From Marinitenerispora sediminis (GTDB taxonomy: Bacteria > Actinomycetota > Actinomycetes > Streptosporangiales > Streptosporangiaceae), in the NCBI RefSeq assembly GCF_003336425.1, contig NZ_QEIO01000020.1:1-52065 (forward strand): 52,065 nucleotides of DNA, written 5' to 3'. The notes beneath the pieces are model-generated. The model ran no database searches and was not told the DNA's origin. It saw only the letters and a program-made list of their open reading frames with translations. Position numbers and translations under genes: made by a program. Positions 237 through 52,065 of the stretch are shown one piece after another (position 1 is the stretch's first letter; each line of letters starts with the position of its first letter).

Positions 237-330
237 CGGTATGCGGCCCGGGCCTGGTTGGTCCCACGGCGGCGCCCACCGGGCGGCCCGAAAAATTGAT
301 TCCGGCATACCGTCCCAGAACGGCATACTG
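237..330. promoter_or_regulatory. Candidate operator: three copies of GCATACYG before the LuxR gene
   Basis: GCATACCG lies at 305-312, GCATACTG at 323-330, and the reverse complement CGGTATGC at 237-244. The two direct copies start 18 bp apart and the last one ends 6 bp before the ATG at 337, overlapping the Shine-Dalgarno GGAG. An AT-containing 8-mer seen three times in about 95 bp of this very GC-rich DNA is unlikely to be chance. Autoregulation by the LuxR protein is an inference. Confidence 0.4.
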
Positions 331-336
331 GAGGTC

Positions 337-3336
337 ATGAGTTCGCACGGCACCAGTCCGGTTCTCGTCGGGCGGGCGGCGGAACTGCGCACCCTGCTCG
401 ACCACGCGCACGCCGCGCGGACCGGCGGGGCGGGCACCATCCTCATCGGCGGCGACGCCGGAGTCGGCAAGTCCCGCCTGCTGCGCGAGTTCGCCGAGCA
501 GGTGCCCGGCGGACCGGTCGTCGCGGGCGGGTGCCTGGAACTGGGCGTCGACGGCCTGCCGTTCGCCCCCTTCGTCACCGTGCTGCGCCACCTGCTGCAC
601 GAACTCGGCCAGGAGCGTTTCGCGAGCCTGGTGACCGGCGGCGGGAAGGAGCTCGCCCGCCTGCTGCCCGAGCTGGGCGAGCAGCCCGGCGAGCACCGCG
701 AGGCACGCAACCGCCTCTTCGAGGAGGTGCTGCGGGTGCTGGCCGGCGCCGCCGAACCCGCCGGGCTCACCGTCGTCCTGGAGGACCTGCACTGGGCCGA
801 CGCCGCCACCCGCGACCTGCTGGTGTTCCTGGTGCGCAACCTCGACACCGCGCACGTGCAGATCGTCGCCAGCTACCGCTCCGACGACCTGCACCGGTCG
901 CATCCGCTGCGCCGGCTGATCCCCGAGCTGGAACGGCTGCCCACGGTCGGCCACCTGACCCTGCGGCCGCTCTCCCCCGAGGAGGTCGCCCAGCAGGCCG
1001 CGGCGATCCGCCGGAGGGAGCTGGCGCCGGAGCAGGCGGCGGCGCTGTACGAGCGCACCGCCGGCAACCCGCTCTTCGTGGAGTCGTTCCTCGACTCCTG
1101 CGACCTCGGCGACATCCTGGACTCACCGGTCCCCAGCCAGCCGCGCGAACTGCTGCTGGCCGGCGTCGACCGGCTCCCCGAACGAGCGCGCAGCGTCGTC
1201 CGGATCGCGTCCGTGGGCGCGGTCAGCGGCGACCACGTCGGCCATGCGCTGCTCGCGCACGTCGCCGGGCTCGGTTTCGACGAGCTCGACGAGGCGCTCG
1301 GCGCGGCTGTCAACGCCAACGTCCTGCGGGTGGACGGCGAGGGCTACCGGTTCCGCCACTCGCTGCTGCGCGAGGCGGTGCACCAGGAGCTGCTGCCCGG
1401 CGCGCACGCCCGGCTGCACCTGCGGTTCGCCGAGGCGCTGGAGGTCCGGCCCGATCTGGTGCCGGCCGACCGCCTGGCCGCCGTGCAGGCGCACCACTTC
1501 CACGCCGCGCACGAGCTGCCGCGCGCGCTGAGCGCCGCCTGGTGGGCGGCGGTGCGGGCCGGCGAGGCGCTGGCCTTCGCCGAGCAGCTGCGCATGCTGG
1601 AGCGCGTCATCGAGCTGTGGGACCGGGTCCCGGAGCCGGGCGCGCTGGTGGACGCCGACCTCGTGGAGGTACTGCGGCACGCCGTGATGGCGGCGTTCGA
1701 GAGCGGGGAGTTCCGGCGCGGCCGGGAACTGGCCGATCTCGCGCTCTCCCTGCTTCCCGACACCGACGACGCCGGGACCCGCACCCGCCGTGCCGTCCTC
1801 CTGCGCAGCCGGGGCCGCATCCGCATCCAGCTCGGCGACGACGCCGCCATGGAGGACCTGCTCGCGGCGCTCGACCTGCACCCGCCGGAGCACCACGGCT
1901 ACGGGTGGCTGCTGGCGATCATCGCGCGCGAGCTGATGCTGCGCGGCGGCACGCTGCCCACCGACCGGCTCGCCGCCGGCATGCTCGCCCTCGACAGCAC
2001 GCACTGCAGGCTCACCGCGGCCGAGCTCGCCACGGAGGCCCTGGCGCGGTCCACCGAGCACGGTGACTTCTGCGCCGTGTCCGACGCCGTCATCACCCTG
2101 GGCACCGTGCAGGGCGAGACCGGTGACGTGGAGGCGGGCATCCGGAGCATGCGGCGCGGCATCGCGCTGGCCGTCGAGATCCACGAGCCCGAACTGGAGC
2201 TGCGCGGTATCGGCAACCTGTCCTCGCTGCTGCGCGACTTCGGCCGGCACCACGAGGCGCTGGAGCTGACCGGGCACGGCTTGGAGCGGGCGCGCGAACT
2301 CAGCATGCTGCGCTCCAAGGGGGCGTTCGTCGCGCTGAACCGCGCCGAGATCATGTTCGAGCTCGGGGATCTGCACGAGGCGGCGGTGCTCATCGACGCC
2401 GCGCTGAGCTGGTCGCCGGCGCCGCTGCACGCCTCGCTGCTGAAGGTGCTGCGCGGCCGGGTGGCGCTGGCCCGCGGGGACCAGGCCGCCGTCGCCGCGT
2501 CGCTCGCGGACCTGCGCACCGACCGGGTCCTCGTCACCGGCCGGGTGCAGTCAGTGATGTCGCTGGCCATGCTGACCATGGAGGCCGCACTGGCCGAGGG
2601 CGAGGCGCTGCGGGCGCTGGACATCGCACTGCGGACCTTCGAGCGCGTGGACGTGCGGGCCGGCGCCTGCTACCGCTGGGAGTTCAGCAGCCTGGCCGCG
2701 CGGGCACTGGCCGCGAGCCGCGACGCCGTGGCCGGGCTGCCCGAGCACGCCGAACAGGCGGCCGGACTGCGGCGCAGGCTGTTGGACGTCCACGAGACGA
2801 TCACCGCCCACGGACCGGCCCGCGCGGCGCACCACGACATGGTGCTGGCGTGGATCGCGGTGTTCGACGGCGCGGCCCCCGAGGTGCTCCGGGACGCGTG
2901 GGAGCGGGCGGTGGCCTCCGGCTCGTCGACGGAGTACCGGCTGGCGCACGCCGAAGCGCTGCTGCAGGCCGCCGACGCGGCCGCCTGCTGCGGCGACCGC
3001 GTACTGGCCCGCGAGCGGCTCCGGTCGGCCGCCGACATCGCCAAGGAGTTCGGCGCCGCCCTGCTGGAGCTCCGCGTGACCGACCTCGCCCGGCGCCTGG
3101 GCCTGTCGCTGGACGCGTCGGCGTCGGCTCCCCCGTCCGCACCGGCCGGCCTGACCGCGCGGGAGACTGAGGTGCTGCGGCTGCTGGCCCGGGGTTACAC
3201 CAACGCCCAGATCGCCACCGAGCTGTTCATTTCGGCGAAGACCGCGAGCGTGCACGTGTCGCGCATCCTCGCCAAACTCGACCTCCCCAACCGCGGCCAG
3301 GCCGCCGCCCGCGCCCGCGACCTGGGGCTGGGCTAG
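337..3336 (+). CDS. Large ATP-binding LuxR-family (LAL) transcriptional regulator
   Basis: This 999-residue protein has the architecture of the MalT/LAL family. An N-terminal AAA-type ATPase carries Walker A GGDAGVGKSR near residue 39 and a Walker B-like VVLEDLHWAD near residue 150. A long helical middle region resembles TPR repeats, and a C-terminal LuxR helix-turn-helix begins LTARETEVLRLLARG in about the last 60 residues. The ATG at 337 is preferred to the upstream in-frame ATG at 241 because GGAG sits 4 bases before it and homology to the family begins at once (LVGRAAEL). Such proteins sense a ligand and activate nearby operons, but no target operon is intact next to it. The stop codon TAG lies in a CTAG that directly touches an insertion-sequence end, so the last few residues may have been altered by that insertion. 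Confidence 0.9.
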   Translation: MSSHGTSPVLVGRAAELRTLLDHAHAARTGGAGTILIGGDAGVGKSRLLREFAEQVPGGPVVAGGCLELGVDGLPFAPFVTVLRHLLHELGQERFASLVTGGGKELARLLPELGEQPGEHREARNRLFEEVLRVLAGAAEPAGLTVVLEDLHWADAATRDLLVFLVRNLDTAHVQIVASYRSDDLHRSHPLRRLIPELERLPTVGHLTLRPLSPEEVAQQAAAIRRRELAPEQAAALYERTAGNPLFVESFLDSCDLGDILDSPVPSQPRELLLAGVDRLPERARSVVRIASVGAVSGDHVGHALLAHVAGLGFDELDEALGAAVNANVLRVDGEGYRFRHSLLREAVHQELLPGAHARLHLRFAEALEVRPDLVPADRLAAVQAHHFHAAHELPRALSAAWWAAVRAGEALAFAEQLRMLERVIELWDRVPEPGALVDADLVEVLRHAVMAAFESGEFRRGRELADLALSLLPDTDDAGTRTRRAVLLRSRGRIRIQLGDDAAMEDLLAALDLHPPEHHGYGWLLAIIARELMLRGGTLPTDRLAAGMLALDSTHCRLTAAELATEALARSTEHGDFCAVSDAVITLGTVQGETGDVEAGIRSMRRGIALAVEIHEPELELRGIGNLSSLLRDFGRHHEALELTGHGLERARELSMLRSKGAFVALNRAEIMFELGDLHEAAVLIDAALSWSPAPLHASLLKVLRGRVALARGDQAAVAASLADLRTDRVLVTGRVQSVMSLAMLTMEAALAEGEALRALDIALRTFERVDVRAGACYRWEFSSLAARALAASRDAVAGLPEHAEQAAGLRRRLLDVHETITAHGPARAAHHDMVLAWIAVFDGAAPEVLRDAWERAVASGSSTEYRLAHAEALLQAADAAACCGDRVLARERLRSAADIAKEFGAALLELRVTDLARRLGLSLDASASAPPSAPAGLTARETEVLRLLARGYTNAQIATELFISAKTASVHVSRILAKLDLPNRGQAAARARDLGLG

Positions 3337-4153
3337 ATCGTTGATGGGAGCTTGGTGTCCTGGTCAGTGGTCATAAGCGGTCAGTGACCGCTTGACCGGG
3401 GCGCCGATCAGCCAGTTGTGCAGATGGCGGCGTTGAGGGCGAGGACGCGCTGACACACTGCGCCCACTGCCCCTCGGTGGTGCGTGCGGCGTGGCGCTTT
3501 CAGGCCGAGCTGGTTCTTCAGGGTCCAGATGACCGCCTCGATGCGCTGGCGCAGCCATCCGGGGAACACACCGGTGTCGGGCTCATCAGCGCGGGCGGGA
3601 CGGATGAGCACATGGCCCAGGCCCGCCATGGCCGCCTCGATCCCGGCCCCGGCGAAGCGTTTGTCGCCCACGACGGGGCAGGGCCCCGGTGCGATGGGCA
3701 CCGCGGTGAGCAGGTGCACCGCCTGCTTGCGTTCGTCCCGCTCCCTGGGGTTGGCCAGGGAGAACGCGGTGACGGCTCCGTCTGCGGTGATGATGGGCAG
3801 GAGCTTGGCGCCCCGGTAGAAGGCGTGGTGGAAGGCGTCACGCCTCTAGCCAGCGATCTCGCCCAGGCCCGAGCGGTCCACCGTGGCGCGCGAAGCCCCG
3901 CAGGGCAGCGGGGTGCCGTCCATCAGCCGGTGTTTCTCCTGGTAGGTGGGGGTGGCGCGGGCCAGCCGCCGGGCCACCGCGAAGAGCACCGGGGCTAGGG
4001 CGCGCAGGTGCCGGTTGTACTTCGATTGGCCGGGCAGGCGCGGGAAGAGGTGCCCGGTCCGGGAGGGTGCCGCGTGCATCCAGTGGTGCTCAGAGTCGAG
4101 CGCAGCAGGAGCACTTGGGCTACCGCGACGCGGACGAGTTCGGCGTCGGGGAC
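3337..4153 (-). pseudogene. Decayed IS982-type transposase with one terminal end
   Basis: Minus-strand fragments align in order with the IS982-type transposases common in actinobacteria. They are an N-terminal VPDAELVRVAVAQVLL, the block around GHLFPRLPGQSKYN, the first catalytic Asp region (LMDGTPLPCG), a second (VVGDKRFAG), the Glu block (LRQRIEAVIWTLKNQLGL) and the characteristic C-terminus VKRSLTAYDH ending at 3364. It is broken three ways: a frameshift near 4090, an in-frame TAG at 3846-3848 where the family has Tyr, and a one-base loss near 3430 that shifts the final 18 residues. The terminal sequence ATCGTTGATGGG starts at 3337 directly after the LuxR stop codon. The other end of the element is lost where it meets an IS630 fragment. 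Confidence 0.8.
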
Positions 4154-4291
4154 GGCGAACCACCGCCCGACCAGGTTCGGCCGGGAAGCGCTGGCCTGGG
4201 TGAACCGCATGCGCGACCGGGGACGGGCCAGCAGCCGCCGCTCGATCGCGGGCGTCTTGTGCGTGGCGCGGTCGCCGCGGACCAGGTGCAC
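4154..4291 (-). pseudogene. IS630-type transposase remnant (first of two)
   Basis: About 46 residues on the minus strand read like the catalytic core of IS630-family transposases: HLV..D.ATHKTPAIERRLL, then MRFTQASASRPNLVGRWFA. The family has a Glu where this copy reads Gly (VERWF to VGRWF), so the catalytic triad is lost. The fragment continues in frame straight into the IS982 fragment at 4153, which shows that one element landed in, or recombined with, the other. Nothing recognisable flanks it upstream. Confidence 0.6.
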
Positions 4292-4493
4292 GGTCCGCGA
4301 TGCCGCCGGCCTGCACCTGAATCCCTCCGACGATGCCCGCGGTGCCGGGCCACCAGACCCGCGACCGCGTTCGGGCTGGTACGGCCCCCGTGTTCGCGGT
4401 CCTGGACGCGGCGTCGGGGCAAGGCGGCCTCCTCCCGCCTCCGCAGGCACCGCGCCGCCGAGCTCCGGAAGTTCCTGGTCCGGGCCGACGGGG

Positions 4494-4830
4494 AAGCACC
4501 TCGTGGGCTTGACGTTCCGTCTCGTGCTGGACGGCTACGGAACGCGCGAGGCGCCGGCCATCAGGGACTGCCTGGATGCTGGCCCCCCGTTTCCCGCTGC
4601 GTTCCATCCCCACCCACTCCGGTCGGATGGACGTGGCGGAGCGGTTCCTTTCCCGATCACCCGCCGGATGGTCCGGCGGGGTACCTCTCTCTACGTCCGG
4701 CAAAGCACGTGAGCTTGCCCTGCGGTCATGGATCGACCACTGGAATGAGCATCCCCGGCCGTTCGCAGGGGCGAAGACCGCCGAAGAGATCCCCGAGACC
4801 GCCACCGCGTATCCGCGTCGAATCGACGGC
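4494..4830 (+). pseudogene. IS630-type transposase remnant (second, opposite strand)
   Basis: Two frames on the plus strand together give the C-terminal half of an IS630-type transposase. The first runs from 4494 to about 4580 (FRLVLDGYGTREAPAIRDC) and the second to about 4830 (MDVAERF, then ALRSWIDHWNEHPRPFAGAK and TAEEI). A frameshift separates them and no N-terminal half is visible. The residues differ clearly from the minus-strand remnant at 4154-4291, so these are two different IS630 elements and not two arms of one. Confidence 0.65.
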
Positions 4831-5256
4831 CGGAGCACGAGGGCGTGCCAGGTGGCAGCGGATCCGGCCTGGCCGGGCCCCTGGCCGACAGCCGTCGCGG
4901 TCAGACCGGTGAGCCGGCCGACGCACGTGGCCGGTGGCAGCGCTCCTCACCGCCGGCCACGCCGGCGACTGGGCCGTGCCCGGGCAGGCCGCACCGACTG
5001 AACCACGCTCATCCCCGAGCTGCGCGGCCGGCGCATCGGCCGGGCCGCAGGGGCCGACTCGCCCGAGAGGGCCGGTCGGCCGGACGGGGTGGTAGCGCCC
5101 GGCGCGGGGCGGGGCGGCCGGTAGGCCGCGGCGGCCGAGCGGCCTGGCCGGCACCGGCGACGTGCGGCGGTGGTGTGCGGGCCGATGCGGGACCGCCTCC
5201 CGGGTTACCGGGAGCGGCGGACCCGCGTCGGTCCTCGATGCGGTTGTGGCGCGGGG
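4831..5256. other. GC-rich stretch without a recognisable gene
   Basis: About 425 bases between the IS630 remnant and the small Cys-rich gene. Several frames are open only because stop codons are rare at this GC content. Their translations are Arg/Gly/Pro/Ala-rich and match no family I know. No promoter, terminator or repeat stands out. Confidence 0.5.
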
Positions 5257-11909: not shown

Positions 11910-12401
11910 ATGGCTGACACCGCGACGCACCACCCGACCCGTGAGGAGGTGGCGAACTACACGGACCGTGTGGGCCAGGTCTTCGTCTCGGGCGACCTGC
12001 CCGAATCGTGGGGCCGGGTCGCCGGCTACCTGATGGTGTGCGATCCGGAGGCGCAGACGGCCGTCCAGATCTCCCAGGGCACCCGCCTCAGCACCGAGGA
12101 GGTCGGCGGCATCCTGTGCGCCTTCGCCGGAGCCCGGGCCATCCAGCAGAACGGGGAGCCGGGCGGGGCGGACACGACGTTCCAGATGCCGCCGCGTGCG
12201 CACTGGGAGGAGCTGTTCCGCACGCGTGCCCGGATGGTGGCCGAGCTGCGCGACCTGACCGGGGAGGAGCTGGACCTCGTCAACGACCGCGAGGGCCGGG
12301 GGCCCGGTCGGCGGCTGCGGGACGTGCACGACCTGTACTCCCGCGTGGCGGAGGGGCTCGGCAAGGCCCGCGAGGCCGGCTCCAGGGTGCCGCGGCAGTG
12401 A
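11910..12401 (+). CDS. GbsR/MarR-like winged-helix regulator
   Basis: A 163-residue protein whose first half follows the pattern of GbsR/MarR-type regulators: an N-terminal helix, WGRVAGYLMVCDPEAQTAVQ (family: WGR..G.L..C.P..QT), then a helix-turn-helix candidate QISQGTRLSTEEVGGILCAF and a short wing around ADTTFQMPP. The C-terminal half is a long helix with LRDLTGEELDLVN, suited to dimerisation. The recognition helix is less conserved than in typical members, so DNA binding is likely but not certain. GGAAGGGGG precedes the ATG at 11910. No obvious target gene is adjacent. Confidence 0.65.
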   Translation: MADTATHHPTREEVANYTDRVGQVFVSGDLPESWGRVAGYLMVCDPEAQTAVQISQGTRLSTEEVGGILCAFAGARAIQQNGEPGGADTTFQMPPRAHWEELFRTRARMVAELRDLTGEELDLVNDREGRGPGRRLRDVHDLYSRVAEGLGKAREAGSRVPRQ

Positions 12402-12450
12402 GGCGCGCCGGCCGGCGTGCGCCGTCGCAGTGCCGGGCGGCGCACGCCGC

Positions 12451-12495
12451 GCCGCGCTATGCCTCGCCGCGCTACGCCTCGCCGCGCTATGCCTC
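12451..12495. repeat. Three tandem 15-bp repeats
   Basis: GCCGCGCTAYGCCTC is repeated at 12451-12465, 12466-12480 and 12481-12495, with one C/T difference in the middle unit. The copies lie at the 3' end of the decayed oxidoreductase gene on the minus strand, and its TAG stop falls inside the last copy. A fourth partial unit follows. Confidence 0.8.
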
Positions 12496-12877
12496 GCCGC
12501 GCGTTTCGCGGAGCAGGTCGAGGGTCCGCCGCCGCTCGGCGGGGCCGCCGGCCGGGATCACCACCCGCTCCGTCACCCCGGCGTCGGCGTAGCGGCGGAA
12601 CTCCCGGGCTACGGCGGCGTCGTCCCCGGCCACGACGGTGTCGACGATCCCCGCCTTGCCCTGCGGGTCCAGGATCGACCGGTAGTTCGCCAGCTCGCTG
12701 CGCGGTGAGGGCGTGGGAGGCGAGTGCGAGGGGATGGCGGGGATAGGTCGCAATGCTGGAGGTTCCCAGTCCGACCCCCGCACGCGTGGCCCCAGCAGCG
12801 CCGCGAGGGTCAGCGCGTCCCACGCCGCCGTCTGGGAGAGGTAGACGGCGTCCATCCCGGCCATGGCCCCGCACGGG
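12487..12877 (-). pseudogene. Decayed F420-type luciferase-like (LLM) oxidoreductase
   Basis: The minus strand holds only the two ends of an LLM-class flavin/F420 oxidoreductase. The start reads AGMDAVYLSQTAAWDALTLA in one frame and GVGLGTSSIATYPRHPLALA in another frame (a frameshift near 12780). The C-terminus is ELANYRSILDPQGKAGIVDT, followed by AREFRRYADAGVTERVVIPA. The central part, roughly 150 residues in intact members, is missing. The remaining start is divergent from a TetR gene, an arrangement common for LLM genes, so the regulator may have lost its target here. Confidence 0.7.
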
Positions 12878-13023: not shown

Positions 13024-13560
13024 GTGCGAGCCGACGCGCGACGTAACCGCGAGCTCATCGTCACGACCGCCGCCGATCTGTTCGTCGAGCGCGGTCCCGA
13101 GGTGTCGATGGAGGAGATCGCGCGGGCGGCCGGGGTCGGCGTCGGCACGCTCTACCGCCACTTCCCCGACCGGCGGGCGCTGGTGGAGGCCATCTCGGTC
13201 GACGCGCTGCAGCGGCTCCTCGACTACGGCCGGGCGGTGTCGGAACAGGACGTCTCCGGCTGGGAGGCGCTGCGGCTGATCGTGCGCAGGTGCACGGAGC
13301 TGCCGCTCGCGCTCGCCACGTCGGTCACCGGCGGCTCCGCCCTGCCCGGCCGCGCCGAACTCCCCGGTCTCGTCCAGGCGGTGAACGCCGAGCTCGAATG
13401 GGCCGCCGCGCGGGCGCAGCGGGAGGGCACGCTGCGCCGGGACATCCCCGCTCGCGAGGTCATCGCCCTGATCAGCGTGGCCGTCTGCCGTCCGGGCGCG
13501 CGGATCGACGACCCGCTCGTCAGGGTGGTCTTCGACGGCCTGCGGGCCACGGGGGCCTAG
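13024..13560 (+). CDS. TetR-family transcriptional regulator
   Basis: A 178-residue protein with the standard N-terminal TetR DNA-binding domain: RRNRELIVTTAADLFVERG, then the helix-turn-helix VSMEEIARAAGVGVGTLYRH and FPDRRALVEAI. The C-terminal ligand domain has the LARGE-type SVTGGSALPGRAELPGL block often found in actinobacterial TetR proteins. GTG at 13024 follows GAGGAAG. Candidate targets are its own promoter, the decayed LLM gene, and the convergent MFS exporter. Its TAG stop lies in a CTAG directly joined to an insertion-sequence end, exactly as for the LuxR gene at 3336. Confidence 0.9.
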   Translation: MRADARRNRELIVTTAADLFVERGPEVSMEEIARAAGVGVGTLYRHFPDRRALVEAISVDALQRLLDYGRAVSEQDVSGWEALRLIVRRCTELPLALATSVTGGSALPGRAELPGLVQAVNAELEWAAARAQREGTLRRDIPAREVIALISVAVCRPGARIDDPLVRVVFDGLRATGA

Positions 13561-13602
13561 ATCGTTGATGGGGGTTCCTCAATGGTCGTAAGCCACGAGC
13601 GG
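13561..13602 (-). mobile_element. Solo end of an IS982-type element
   Basis: Directly after the TetR stop codon the sequence ATCGTTGATGGG recurs exactly as at the end of the IS982-type element at 3337. It is followed by TTCC and a minus-strand stretch that encodes LVAYDH and a stop, matching the SLTAYDH terminus of the transposase at 3364. Nothing more of the transposase is present, so this is a short relic of a second insertion between the TetR and MFS genes. Confidence 0.7.
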
Positions 13603-51566: not shown

Positions 51567-51863
51567 GTGTCCGAGATGTACCTCGTCAGTGTGCCGTTCG
51601 ACGCGACGACGGAGATCTTCCCGAAACTCGAATGGCTCCGGGAGCAGGTCCCGGACAAGGCCGACGAGATTCGCCGCTTGGCCGTCCTGCTCAGCGAGTT
51701 CGGCGGCCGGGAGCAGCCGCTCCCGCTCTCACTGACCCAGGCGCAGCTCCTGGCGGCACCGGGCCTGTGGGGGATCCGCCGCCACGACTACGAGAACTTC
51801 CTCGCCCAGTGGAAGGCGCAGCTCATCGACCACGGGCGGGTGGACATCGGCGTGGTGCTCTAG
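51567..51863 (+). CDS. Hypothetical protein, 98 residues
   Basis: A soluble, mostly helical protein (EMYLVSVPFDATTEIFPKLE, LREQVPDKADEIRRLAVLLS and a C-terminal HDYENFLAQWKAQLIDHG). I do not recognise the family. The GTG at 51567 is preceded by GGAGG at a good distance, so it is likely expressed. Its TAG stop lies in CTAG directly joined to the IS5-type element, so the true C-terminus may have been cut off by that insertion. Confidence 0.6.
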   Translation: MSEMYLVSVPFDATTEIFPKLEWLREQVPDKADEIRRLAVLLSEFGGREQPLPLSLTQAQLLAAPGLWGIRRHDYENFLAQWKAQLIDHGRVDIGVVL

Positions 51864-52065
51864 GTTCTGTTTCTTGGAAGGTCCGCGGAGTGAGCCGGTG
51901 CTCTGGTACCGCGTGTCGACGTGGTCCGGCGCCATGAACCCACCGACGTCGAGGGGGCCTGCCCGCCCCCGCTCATGCCCGCCCATCCCCGCAAAGGCCA
52001 GCGGTGGGCCGACCACCGCGGAACCGTCAACGCCATCCTGTTCCGCGCCCGCACCAGGACGGGGA
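51861..52065 (+). mobile_element. Left end of an IS5-type insertion sequence, truncated by the window
   Basis: The sequence from the CTAG at 51860-51863 onward (GGTTCTGTTTCTTGG and so on) leads into a transposase start and runs off the window, so the element's right end cannot be seen. The end position next to a host stop codon repeats the pattern at 3333 and 13557. Confidence 0.55.
51921..52065 (+). CDS. IS5-family transposase, N-terminal fragment (runs off right edge)
   Basis: The visible 48 codons begin VVRRHEPTD and include HPRKGQRWADHRGTVNAILF and RARTRTG. This matches the N-terminal DUF4096-type domain of IS5-family transposases (typically RRHELTD...LLP...G.RW.DHR..VNGILFR.RTG). The Trp and Leu/Pro positions between TD and HPRK are disturbed (VEGACPPPLMPA), so the copy may be degraded. 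A GTG at 51921 is the plausible start; none of the catalytic Asp/Glu residues lie in the window. Confidence 0.6.
   Translation, partial: MVRRHEPTDVEGACPPPLMPAHPRKGQRWADHRGTVNAILFRARTRTG

Follow-up and report, generated by a model that had tools for sequence, protein, structure and literature searches.

A preference of IS630 for CTAG is said to have been described by Tenzen and Ohtsubo in 1991. Similarly, the transposon TnRErm46 / ISRe46 of Rhodococcus equi, a member of the IS481 family, targets CTAG; according to the available parts of that report, the TAG of the target is the stop codon of some host genes, which are thus uninterrupted, and of the element's own transposase, and insertions within genes were also seen (PMC6794481). 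Copies of IS5 in E. coli are flanked by CTAG or CTAA (PMC11677980), and CTAG or YTAA has been reported for a short element (PMC3189936), as far as the accessible sections of these papers go. For the IS982 family, the consulted portion of a review records that 57 of 69 elements begin with AC and that the direct repeats vary from 0 to 9 bp, and names no target sequence (PMC7335449). The portions seen of PMC8024623, PMC13349160, PMC6735867 and PMC3189936 have no bearing on IS982 targets, and our literature search returned no description of CTAG as the target of an IS982 element.

Here, we analysed a stretch of 52,065 nucleotides from Marinitenerispora sediminis (the window), in which three genes end in a CTAG next to insertion sequence (IS) DNA. 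Based on sequence comparisons, we propose, with a probability of roughly 0.93, that CTAG is the insertion target of an IS982-type IS about 983 bp long and is duplicated in the process, and that the third border would be the same outcome produced by an unrelated IS5-type element which also targets CTAG.

Three gene stops beside insertion sequences

The original prediction held that the CTAGs at 3333-3336, 13557-13560 and 51860-51863 each provide a plus-strand gene with its TAG stop and are followed directly by transposon DNA. This is confirmed by the coordinates and the open reading frames (ORFs), with IS DNA beginning one base after the CTAG at all three borders. The features are as follows:

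241..3336, plus strand: AAA_16/LuxR regulator gene (Pfam AAA_16 and GerE); its TAG is formed by the last three bases of CTAG 3333-3336
3333..3336, no strand: putative target copy, a CTAG bordering the IS982-type element on its right (sequence)
3337..4152, minus strand: degraded remnant of the IS982-type element, covering its right-hand positions 169-983 (81% identity to L203:2904-3886)
4130..4845, both strands: IS630-type transposase pieces beside the IS982 remnant (tblastn with the L234 IS630 transposase, 33-48% identity)
13024..13560, plus strand: TetR-family regulator gene (Pfam TetR_N), stop within CTAG 13557-13560
13557..13560, no strand: putative CTAG target copy (sequence)
13561..13601, minus strand: solo right end of the IS982-type element (13557-13601 identical to ends on contigs C6, C17 and C428)
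51567..51863, plus strand: 98-aa gene, function unknown, stop within CTAG 51860-51863
51860..51863, no strand: putative target copy, a CTAG bordering the IS5-type element on its left (sequence)
51864..52065, plus strand: left end of the IS5-type element, truncated where the contig stops, with the transposase starting near 51975

CTAG had been judged scarce, with about eleven copies in 52 kb, and the count is indeed 11 compared to about 55 expected (mean 54.7, sd 6.8 in 100 dinucleotide shuffles). According to our own gene calls, one further CTAG serves as a stop codon: the one at 3846, which closes a low-scoring ORF within the IS remnant. This remnant carries the transposase on the minus strand, with protein pieces 72% and 83% identical, while at 13557-13601 the 45 bases are identical in three other home copies and the remainder of the copy is lost. 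The segment 51864-52065 has 10 matching places in the home genome, window included. IS630-type copies adjoin some copies of the IS982-type element; the L234 transposase used as tblastn query scores 274 bits on NF033545.

The IS982-type element and its flanks

The first two borders belong to a single element, about 983 bp long, which encodes a DDE transposase probably of the IS982 type. They share one exact string, as had been noticed; since these 16 bases consist of CTAG and the terminal repeat of a single element, the two sites are not independent element types, whereas the third border does come from a different type of IS. Border types GGTTCCTC.. and ATTTTGTTG.. were considered as two IS families with a common end, which was rejected, as each marks a different end of a single element. 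The ends read ATCGTTGATGGG or close variants, and the word CTAGATCGTTGATGGG occurs seven times in the home genome and its reversed form not at all.

The span between the ends is 978-999 bp, and the transposase frames are 297-312 aa long in 14 of the 17 listed loci (of 19) and broken in the other three. A single transposase gene between inverted repeats in an element of about 1 kb is a feature of the IS982 family. NF033520 (IS982) was the best match for all six close transposases tested, with 115-128 bits just under the cut-off of 130, and three transposases of plasmid relatives, which are annotated as IS982, reach 160-181 bits. The transposase at L203:2939-3859 matched only DDE_Tnp_1 in Pfam and only IS982 in NCBIfam and did not show the DDE_3 transposase feature of IS630 in either collection; no IS481 or rve match was found in Pfam or NCBIfam for the element's transposase. 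Its inverted repeats do not begin with AC, and most of eight plasmid IS982-type repeats begin with ATG; as 12 of the 69 registered IS982 elements also lack it, an AC start seems typical but not strictly defining, judging from the part of the review available (PMC7335449). Direct repeats of variable length were not found either, as the complete copies in relatives were flanked by CTAG throughout.

To be precise, 18 related genomes provided 47 complete copies, and CTAG was present at 94 of 94 borders; this set is not fully independent because nine copies come from one genome. The count leaves aside copies truncated by contig ends, repeated flanks and 10 partial matches at seven loci (L233, L237, L258, L279, L281, L282, L284), whose seven distinct outer ends are CTAG in six cases and CCAG in one (L282); a further partial copy in L205, also outside the count, has a CGAG border. 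Copies without CTAG, which had been named as evidence against targeting, thus exist among old or partial copies, but not among the complete copies in relatives. Of the 17 ends identified in the home genome, seven are off CTAG (CCAG twice, CTGG twice, CTCG, CGAG and one CTAG with three extra bases), and six of these seven differ by one T or A change. The home ends derive from 30 of 32 places with loci, 14 of which fall below the element-match threshold; the solo end in the window, one of these 14, was added by identity. The off-CTAG home ends are probably decayed, and some of them may instead be secondary targets.

CTAG flanks were also seen beyond the close relatives. A terminal-repeat scan of named genomes listed at least 80 loci; two of the seven inspected contained the element, each time with CTAG, namely those in Actinomadura rifamycini (L062) and Spirillospora albida (L096). 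For IS982 transposases on named actinobacterial plasmids, CTAG is present on both sides at 8 of 13 loci, and at one of these loci (L438) the end of an annotated gene coincides exactly with the left CTAG.

The left end of the IS5-type element adjoins CTAG in 7 of 10 home copies. In G021, 15 of the 16 borders of eight copies are CTAG and one is CTAA; the right ends were read from the sequences, the automatic search having found none. The 30-aa piece in the window reaches 20 bits on DUF4096 (cut-off 34.3), and the G021 relatives score 121 and 135 bits on NF033580 (IS5), above the cut-off of 110.

Gene stops as probable landing sites

We propose that the IS982-type element would enter at CTAG and duplicate it, leaving CTAG on both sides. 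Because CTAG is palindromic, insertion preserves the stop of a gene that ends in cTAG, whichever side the gene lies on, and two convergent genes sharing one CTAG both keep theirs. As CTAG is rare in these genomes, scarce within genes and in about one fifth of its copies a gene stop, many insertions would fall exactly at a stop. The transposase itself would recognise CTAG and duplicate its four bases, although duplicating just the central TA (2 bases) would have the identical appearance.

The flank comparison that had been suggested for related genomes supports the idea that these elements target CTAG, often at stops: a gene stop is found at 22 of 47 IS sites versus 52 of 237 other CTAGs (Fisher p 0.0009), at 18 of 37 versus 48 of 233 (p 0.0007) when sites within 250 bp of another transposase are excluded, and at 16 of 29 versus 30 of 154 in seven genomes matched by genome (odds ratio 4.9, p 0.0003). 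Two convergent genes stop in one CTAG at 5 of 47 IS sites versus 1 of 237 other CTAGs, while the CTAG lies within a gene at 1 of 47 versus 32 of 237 (1 of 37 versus 32 of 233 without transposase neighbours, p 0.06). Control CTAGs within 2 kb of the end of a stretch were excluded. The transposase set used for the neighbours was taken from the flanks of IS sites and from G021, so that neighbours of control sites may be undercounted, and genes were called with our own codon-usage caller, which was judged on the window only.

This excess could also arise if the element were steered to CTAGs at gene ends, for example by a terminator structure or the state of the DNA between convergent genes. In line with this, the surroundings are convergent at 16 of 34 IS sites versus 29 of 174 control CTAGs (p 0.0004; 3 of 37 IS and 27 of 201 control sites were dropped because their neighbours were not determinable). 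However, the same pattern arises without steering if insertions are lost from genes and from promoter-bearing gaps between divergent genes (5 of 34 versus 54 of 174), and we consider steering unlikely. We infer that the excess at stops comes mainly from the loss of harmful insertions.

Alternatively, the IS end might itself carry CTAG and thereby bring in a new stop that truncates the host gene. From sequence alone, a CTAG directly outside the repeat of every complete copy could indeed count as part of the repeat. However, at the one insertion site for which we compared empty sites (the L268 copy), 29 relatives span the uninterrupted place, 16 of which have CTAG there as gene stop, and others have different stops at the same position. 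As the stop was present before the insertion, this points to CTAG as the target, which was presumably duplicated on insertion. Six home ends also vary in the T or A within the four outer bases. In addition, the window genes agree with most of their homologues in where the protein ends, exactly or nearly so. For the AAA_16/LuxR gene, 5 of the 11 best non-self homologue loci have an identical implied length and nine are within 2 residues; one is 6 residues longer and the eleventh alignment ended early. For the TetR gene, six of 11 such loci are within 3 residues, two are longer by 6-7, one is 17 longer, one diverges past residue 154 and one leaves its contig. The 98-aa protein, which has no Pfam, NCBIfam or plasmid match, was found in 3 of 200 genomes, its own included; a 61% identical homologue in G018 ends at its residue 96, and a second match (35-38%) continues 22 residues beyond the end of the alignment. 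A stop supplied by the IS end, the other origin considered in the original prediction, is therefore refuted at the L268 site and very improbable overall. That three of eleven scarce CTAGs lie at IS borders by coincidence can be dismissed, small as the window is as a sample, given the uniform borders in relatives and the plasmid loci in other genera.

Comparison with known CTAG-targeting elements

Insertion at CTAG gives a simple rule for the landing sites of a widespread group of actinobacterial IS and a possible reason why genomes tolerate them, since the target is scarce within genes and its duplication preserves the stop codon. We tentatively speculate, though the odds are somewhat against it, that four or more unrelated IS families of GC-rich Actinobacteria (IS982, IS630, IS481 and IS5) converged on CTAG as a short gene-end word; a doubled CTAG would leave two landing sites for the next element and several elements would end their own transposase on the target TAG, which would make CTAG a shared, self-renewing safe harbour. 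Our results also suggest that IS lists may have counted a palindromic target duplication towards the terminal repeat. ISCef2 and ISCef3 are given a direct repeat of 0 in the part of the IS982 review seen (PMC7335449), and the Corynebacterium efficiens plasmid pCE3 carries an IS982-type copy, which may be one of these two elements, with CTAG on both sides.

The element shares the CTAG target with IS630, whose transposase is different (DDE_3). E. coli IS5 resembles the third border, which has a putative IS5-type end, and belongs to another family than the first two (PMC11677980, as far as available). In accordance with the accessible description of the IS982 family, the element measures about 1 kb, encodes a single transposase of some 300 aa flanked by inverted repeats and has IS982 as its best NCBIfam model; it differs in its ends and in the CTAG repeat of all complete copies (PMC7335449). 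Like TnRErm46 / ISRe46, it has a CTAG target whose TAG serves as host-gene stop, whereas TnRErm46 has an IS481-family transposase, other terminal repeats and a resistance gene, according to the portion of the report consulted (PMC6794481). Landing on a CTAG stop is thus already published, for an IS481-family transposon; new are the CTAG targeting in an actinobacterial IS982 group and the measured excess at stop codons, which selection may explain.

CTAG stops at the element borders of the window

Contig C102, which makes up the entire window, belongs to a home genome of 6.0 Mb in 441 contigs. CTAG had been noted as scarce here, and the 11 sites counted compare with 54.7 expected from dinucleotide shuffles. 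It had also been noted that the CTAGs at 3333, 13557 and 51860 each end a plus-strand gene, their TAG serving as its stop, which we could confirm for all three genes. The features concerned are:

AAA_16/LuxR regulator gene, plus strand, stop in the CTAG at 3333
3337-4152, decayed right part of an IS982-type element, adjoining IS630-type pieces
4130-4845, both strands, IS630-type transposase pieces
TetR regulator gene, plus strand, stop in the CTAG at 13557
13561-13601, solo end of an IS982-type element, no more of that copy present
gene for a 98-aa protein with no assigned function, plus strand, stop in the CTAG at 51860
IS5-type element, starting after the CTAG at 51860 and cut off by the contig end

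The right terminal repeat of one and the same element lies directly 3' of the CTAGs at 3333 and 13557, and the solo end at the latter site is identical to three home copies over 45 bases including CTAG. The IS630-type pieces lie on both strands and therefore represent at least two broken fragments. A tandem array of a 15-base unit (12446-12502, 3.8 copies) follows a gene ending at 12401. Among the best 11 non-self loci for the LuxR protein, the implied length was identical in 5 and at most 2 residues off in 9; one of the remaining loci was 6 residues longer and in one the alignment ended early. For TetR, 6 of the best 11 non-self loci differed by at most 3 residues, two were 6-7 longer, one was 17 longer, one diverged past residue 154 and one ran off its contig. 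A 61% homologue of the 98-aa protein stops at residue 96, and a weak homologue extends 22 residues further. Because homologue lengths mostly agree, the CTAG stops of the window genes appear, as far as homologues tell, to be natural gene ends.

CTAG as the target of the IS982-type element

Complete copies of the element, found in relatives whose contigs are long, measure 978-999 bp, and both of their ends read ATCGTTGATGGG or a near variant. The transposase frame comprises 297-312 aa in 14 of the 17 loci listed and is broken in 3 (19 loci submitted); for six close copies, IS982 was the top family model with 115-128 bits at a cut-off of 130. Copies were collected in a family-wide search of 297 genomes, with two candidates scored per genome, and in fuller searches of 15 and 24 selected genomes, from which all full-length copies with both ends on the contig entered the border count. 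The flanks of these 47 distinct copies from 18 genomes bear out the proposed association with CTAG, which was present at 94/94 borders. Outside CTAG the flanks are mostly unlike each other; where flanks do match, they mostly belong to the end of an element from a different IS family. Judged from the sequence, a duplication of the two bases TA within CTAG would yield the same arrangement.

Copies lacking CTAG would have spoken against the original prediction; there were none among full-length copies in relatives, but 7 of 17 home ends (16 identified by homology; the solo end at 13557 was recognised from its identical sequence) are off CTAG, the other 10 having it. Six of the seven carry a single change, at T or A, and the seventh has CTAG plus three additional bases. 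As the home search tolerated one mismatch in the repeat, older ends were missed. Ends of partial copies in relatives are CTAG in 6/7 cases and CCAG in 1/7, and a further partial copy (L205) has CGAG. The off-CTAG borders are most simply read as having decayed towards GC, while secondary targets are possible. CCAG replaces CTAG at three IS982 ends (loci L010, L023 and L282), whose flanks look IS481-end-like by eye.

Related transposases are found in 46 plasmid records, of which 13 (42-53% identity) were inspected. CTAG flanks the inverted repeat on both sides in eight loci, from Kitasatospora, Streptomyces, Rhodococcus and Corynebacterium, and is found at one end, recognised by eye, in three more. 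One locus at a record end shows TAG on its left side and lacks CTAG on its right, and one of the 13 has no CTAG. In Rhodococcus pseudokoreensis, an annotated gene terminates precisely in the left CTAG.

Excess of insertions at gene stops

Using our own small codon-usage gene caller, we compared joined empty sites with control CTAGs, which were taken from 56 stretches (20 kb each) in 8 genomes including the home genome. Few control CTAGs lie within genes, although the same caller assigns ~81% of the window to genes.

Positions of IS982-type insertions and control CTAGs
Class: IS sites; control CTAGs
At gene stop: 22/47; 52/237 (Fisher p 0.0009)
Intergenic: 24/47; 153/237
Within gene: 1/47; 32/237
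Single CTAG ending both convergent genes: 5/47; 1/237
Convergent surroundings: 16/34; 29/174
Divergent surroundings: 5/34; 54/174
At stop, sites ≤250 bp from another transposase removed: 18/37; 48/233 (p 0.0007)
Within gene, same sites removed: 1/37; 32/233 (p 0.06)
At stop, genome-matched, 7 genomes: 16/29; 30/154 (p 0.0003)

In an earlier round, 23 proteins terminated in CTAG across 41 sites; three are mobile-element proteins according to a family search, and the other 20 look by eye like host proteins. That the element is steered to CTAG at gene ends seems unlikely to us, as the few insertions within genes and divergent gaps are consistent with loss of harmful insertions.

The original prediction left open whether the stop was present beforehand or brought by the IS end. 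At locus L268 (genome G251), where a copy is inserted at a single CTAG in which two convergent genes stop, we searched the joined empty site in 65 genomes of the same genus. Of 30 loci returned, 29 cover the site, insert-free, and the left gene stops in CTAG in 16; the non-CTAG relatives have CTGA (3), CTAA, TTAG or gapped variants. Because insert-free relatives have the stop there, it is older than the insertion at this site, the sole one examined in this way, which favours a pre-existing CTAG stop here and speaks against its supply by the IS end.

A target shared between IS families

In genome G021, 11 matches to the IS5-type element were found and loci obtained for 8, with CTAG at 8/8 left and 7/8 right borders, the exception being CTAA; at home, the left end has CTAG in 7/10 copies. 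In G021 the transposase frame (L360 and seven further loci) reads into the right border, and thus the target supplies the transposase stop. Similarly, an IS630 transposase (274 bits; L234:400-1500) ends in a CTAG occupied by the IS982-type element. IS982 copies of L250, L234, L274, L275, L277, L278 (G282) and L226 (G187) adjoin IS630-type ends, reading CAGAACA-CTAG or CAGGACA-CTAG with the target. These copies occupy the CTAG of the IS630-type end, so the elements are nested exactly at a common target. Another mobile-element gene lay within 250 bp of 10/47 IS982 copies and 4/237 control CTAGs (p 4e-6), a count to be read with caution since the reference proteins came from the same flanks. As different IS families share the CTAG target, it can stack elements.

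In the open-access papers searched, we found no report of CTAG-specific insertion by an IS982 group or of a measured excess of IS at stops, and both are apparently new. A CTAG target is also reported for IS630, according to a title in the reference list of PMC2170065, and for IS5 (PMC11677980). The transposase of the published ISRe46 likewise stops in the flanking target CTAG, as do those of the IS5-type and IS630-type elements here. Whereas the IS982 review gives ends AC and variable direct repeats (PMC7335449), we find CTAG at every border of complete copies. A published parallel is TnRErm46 of Rhodococcus equi (PMC6794481), which shares the CTAG target serving as an intact host stop, but is an IS481 and not an IS982-type element.
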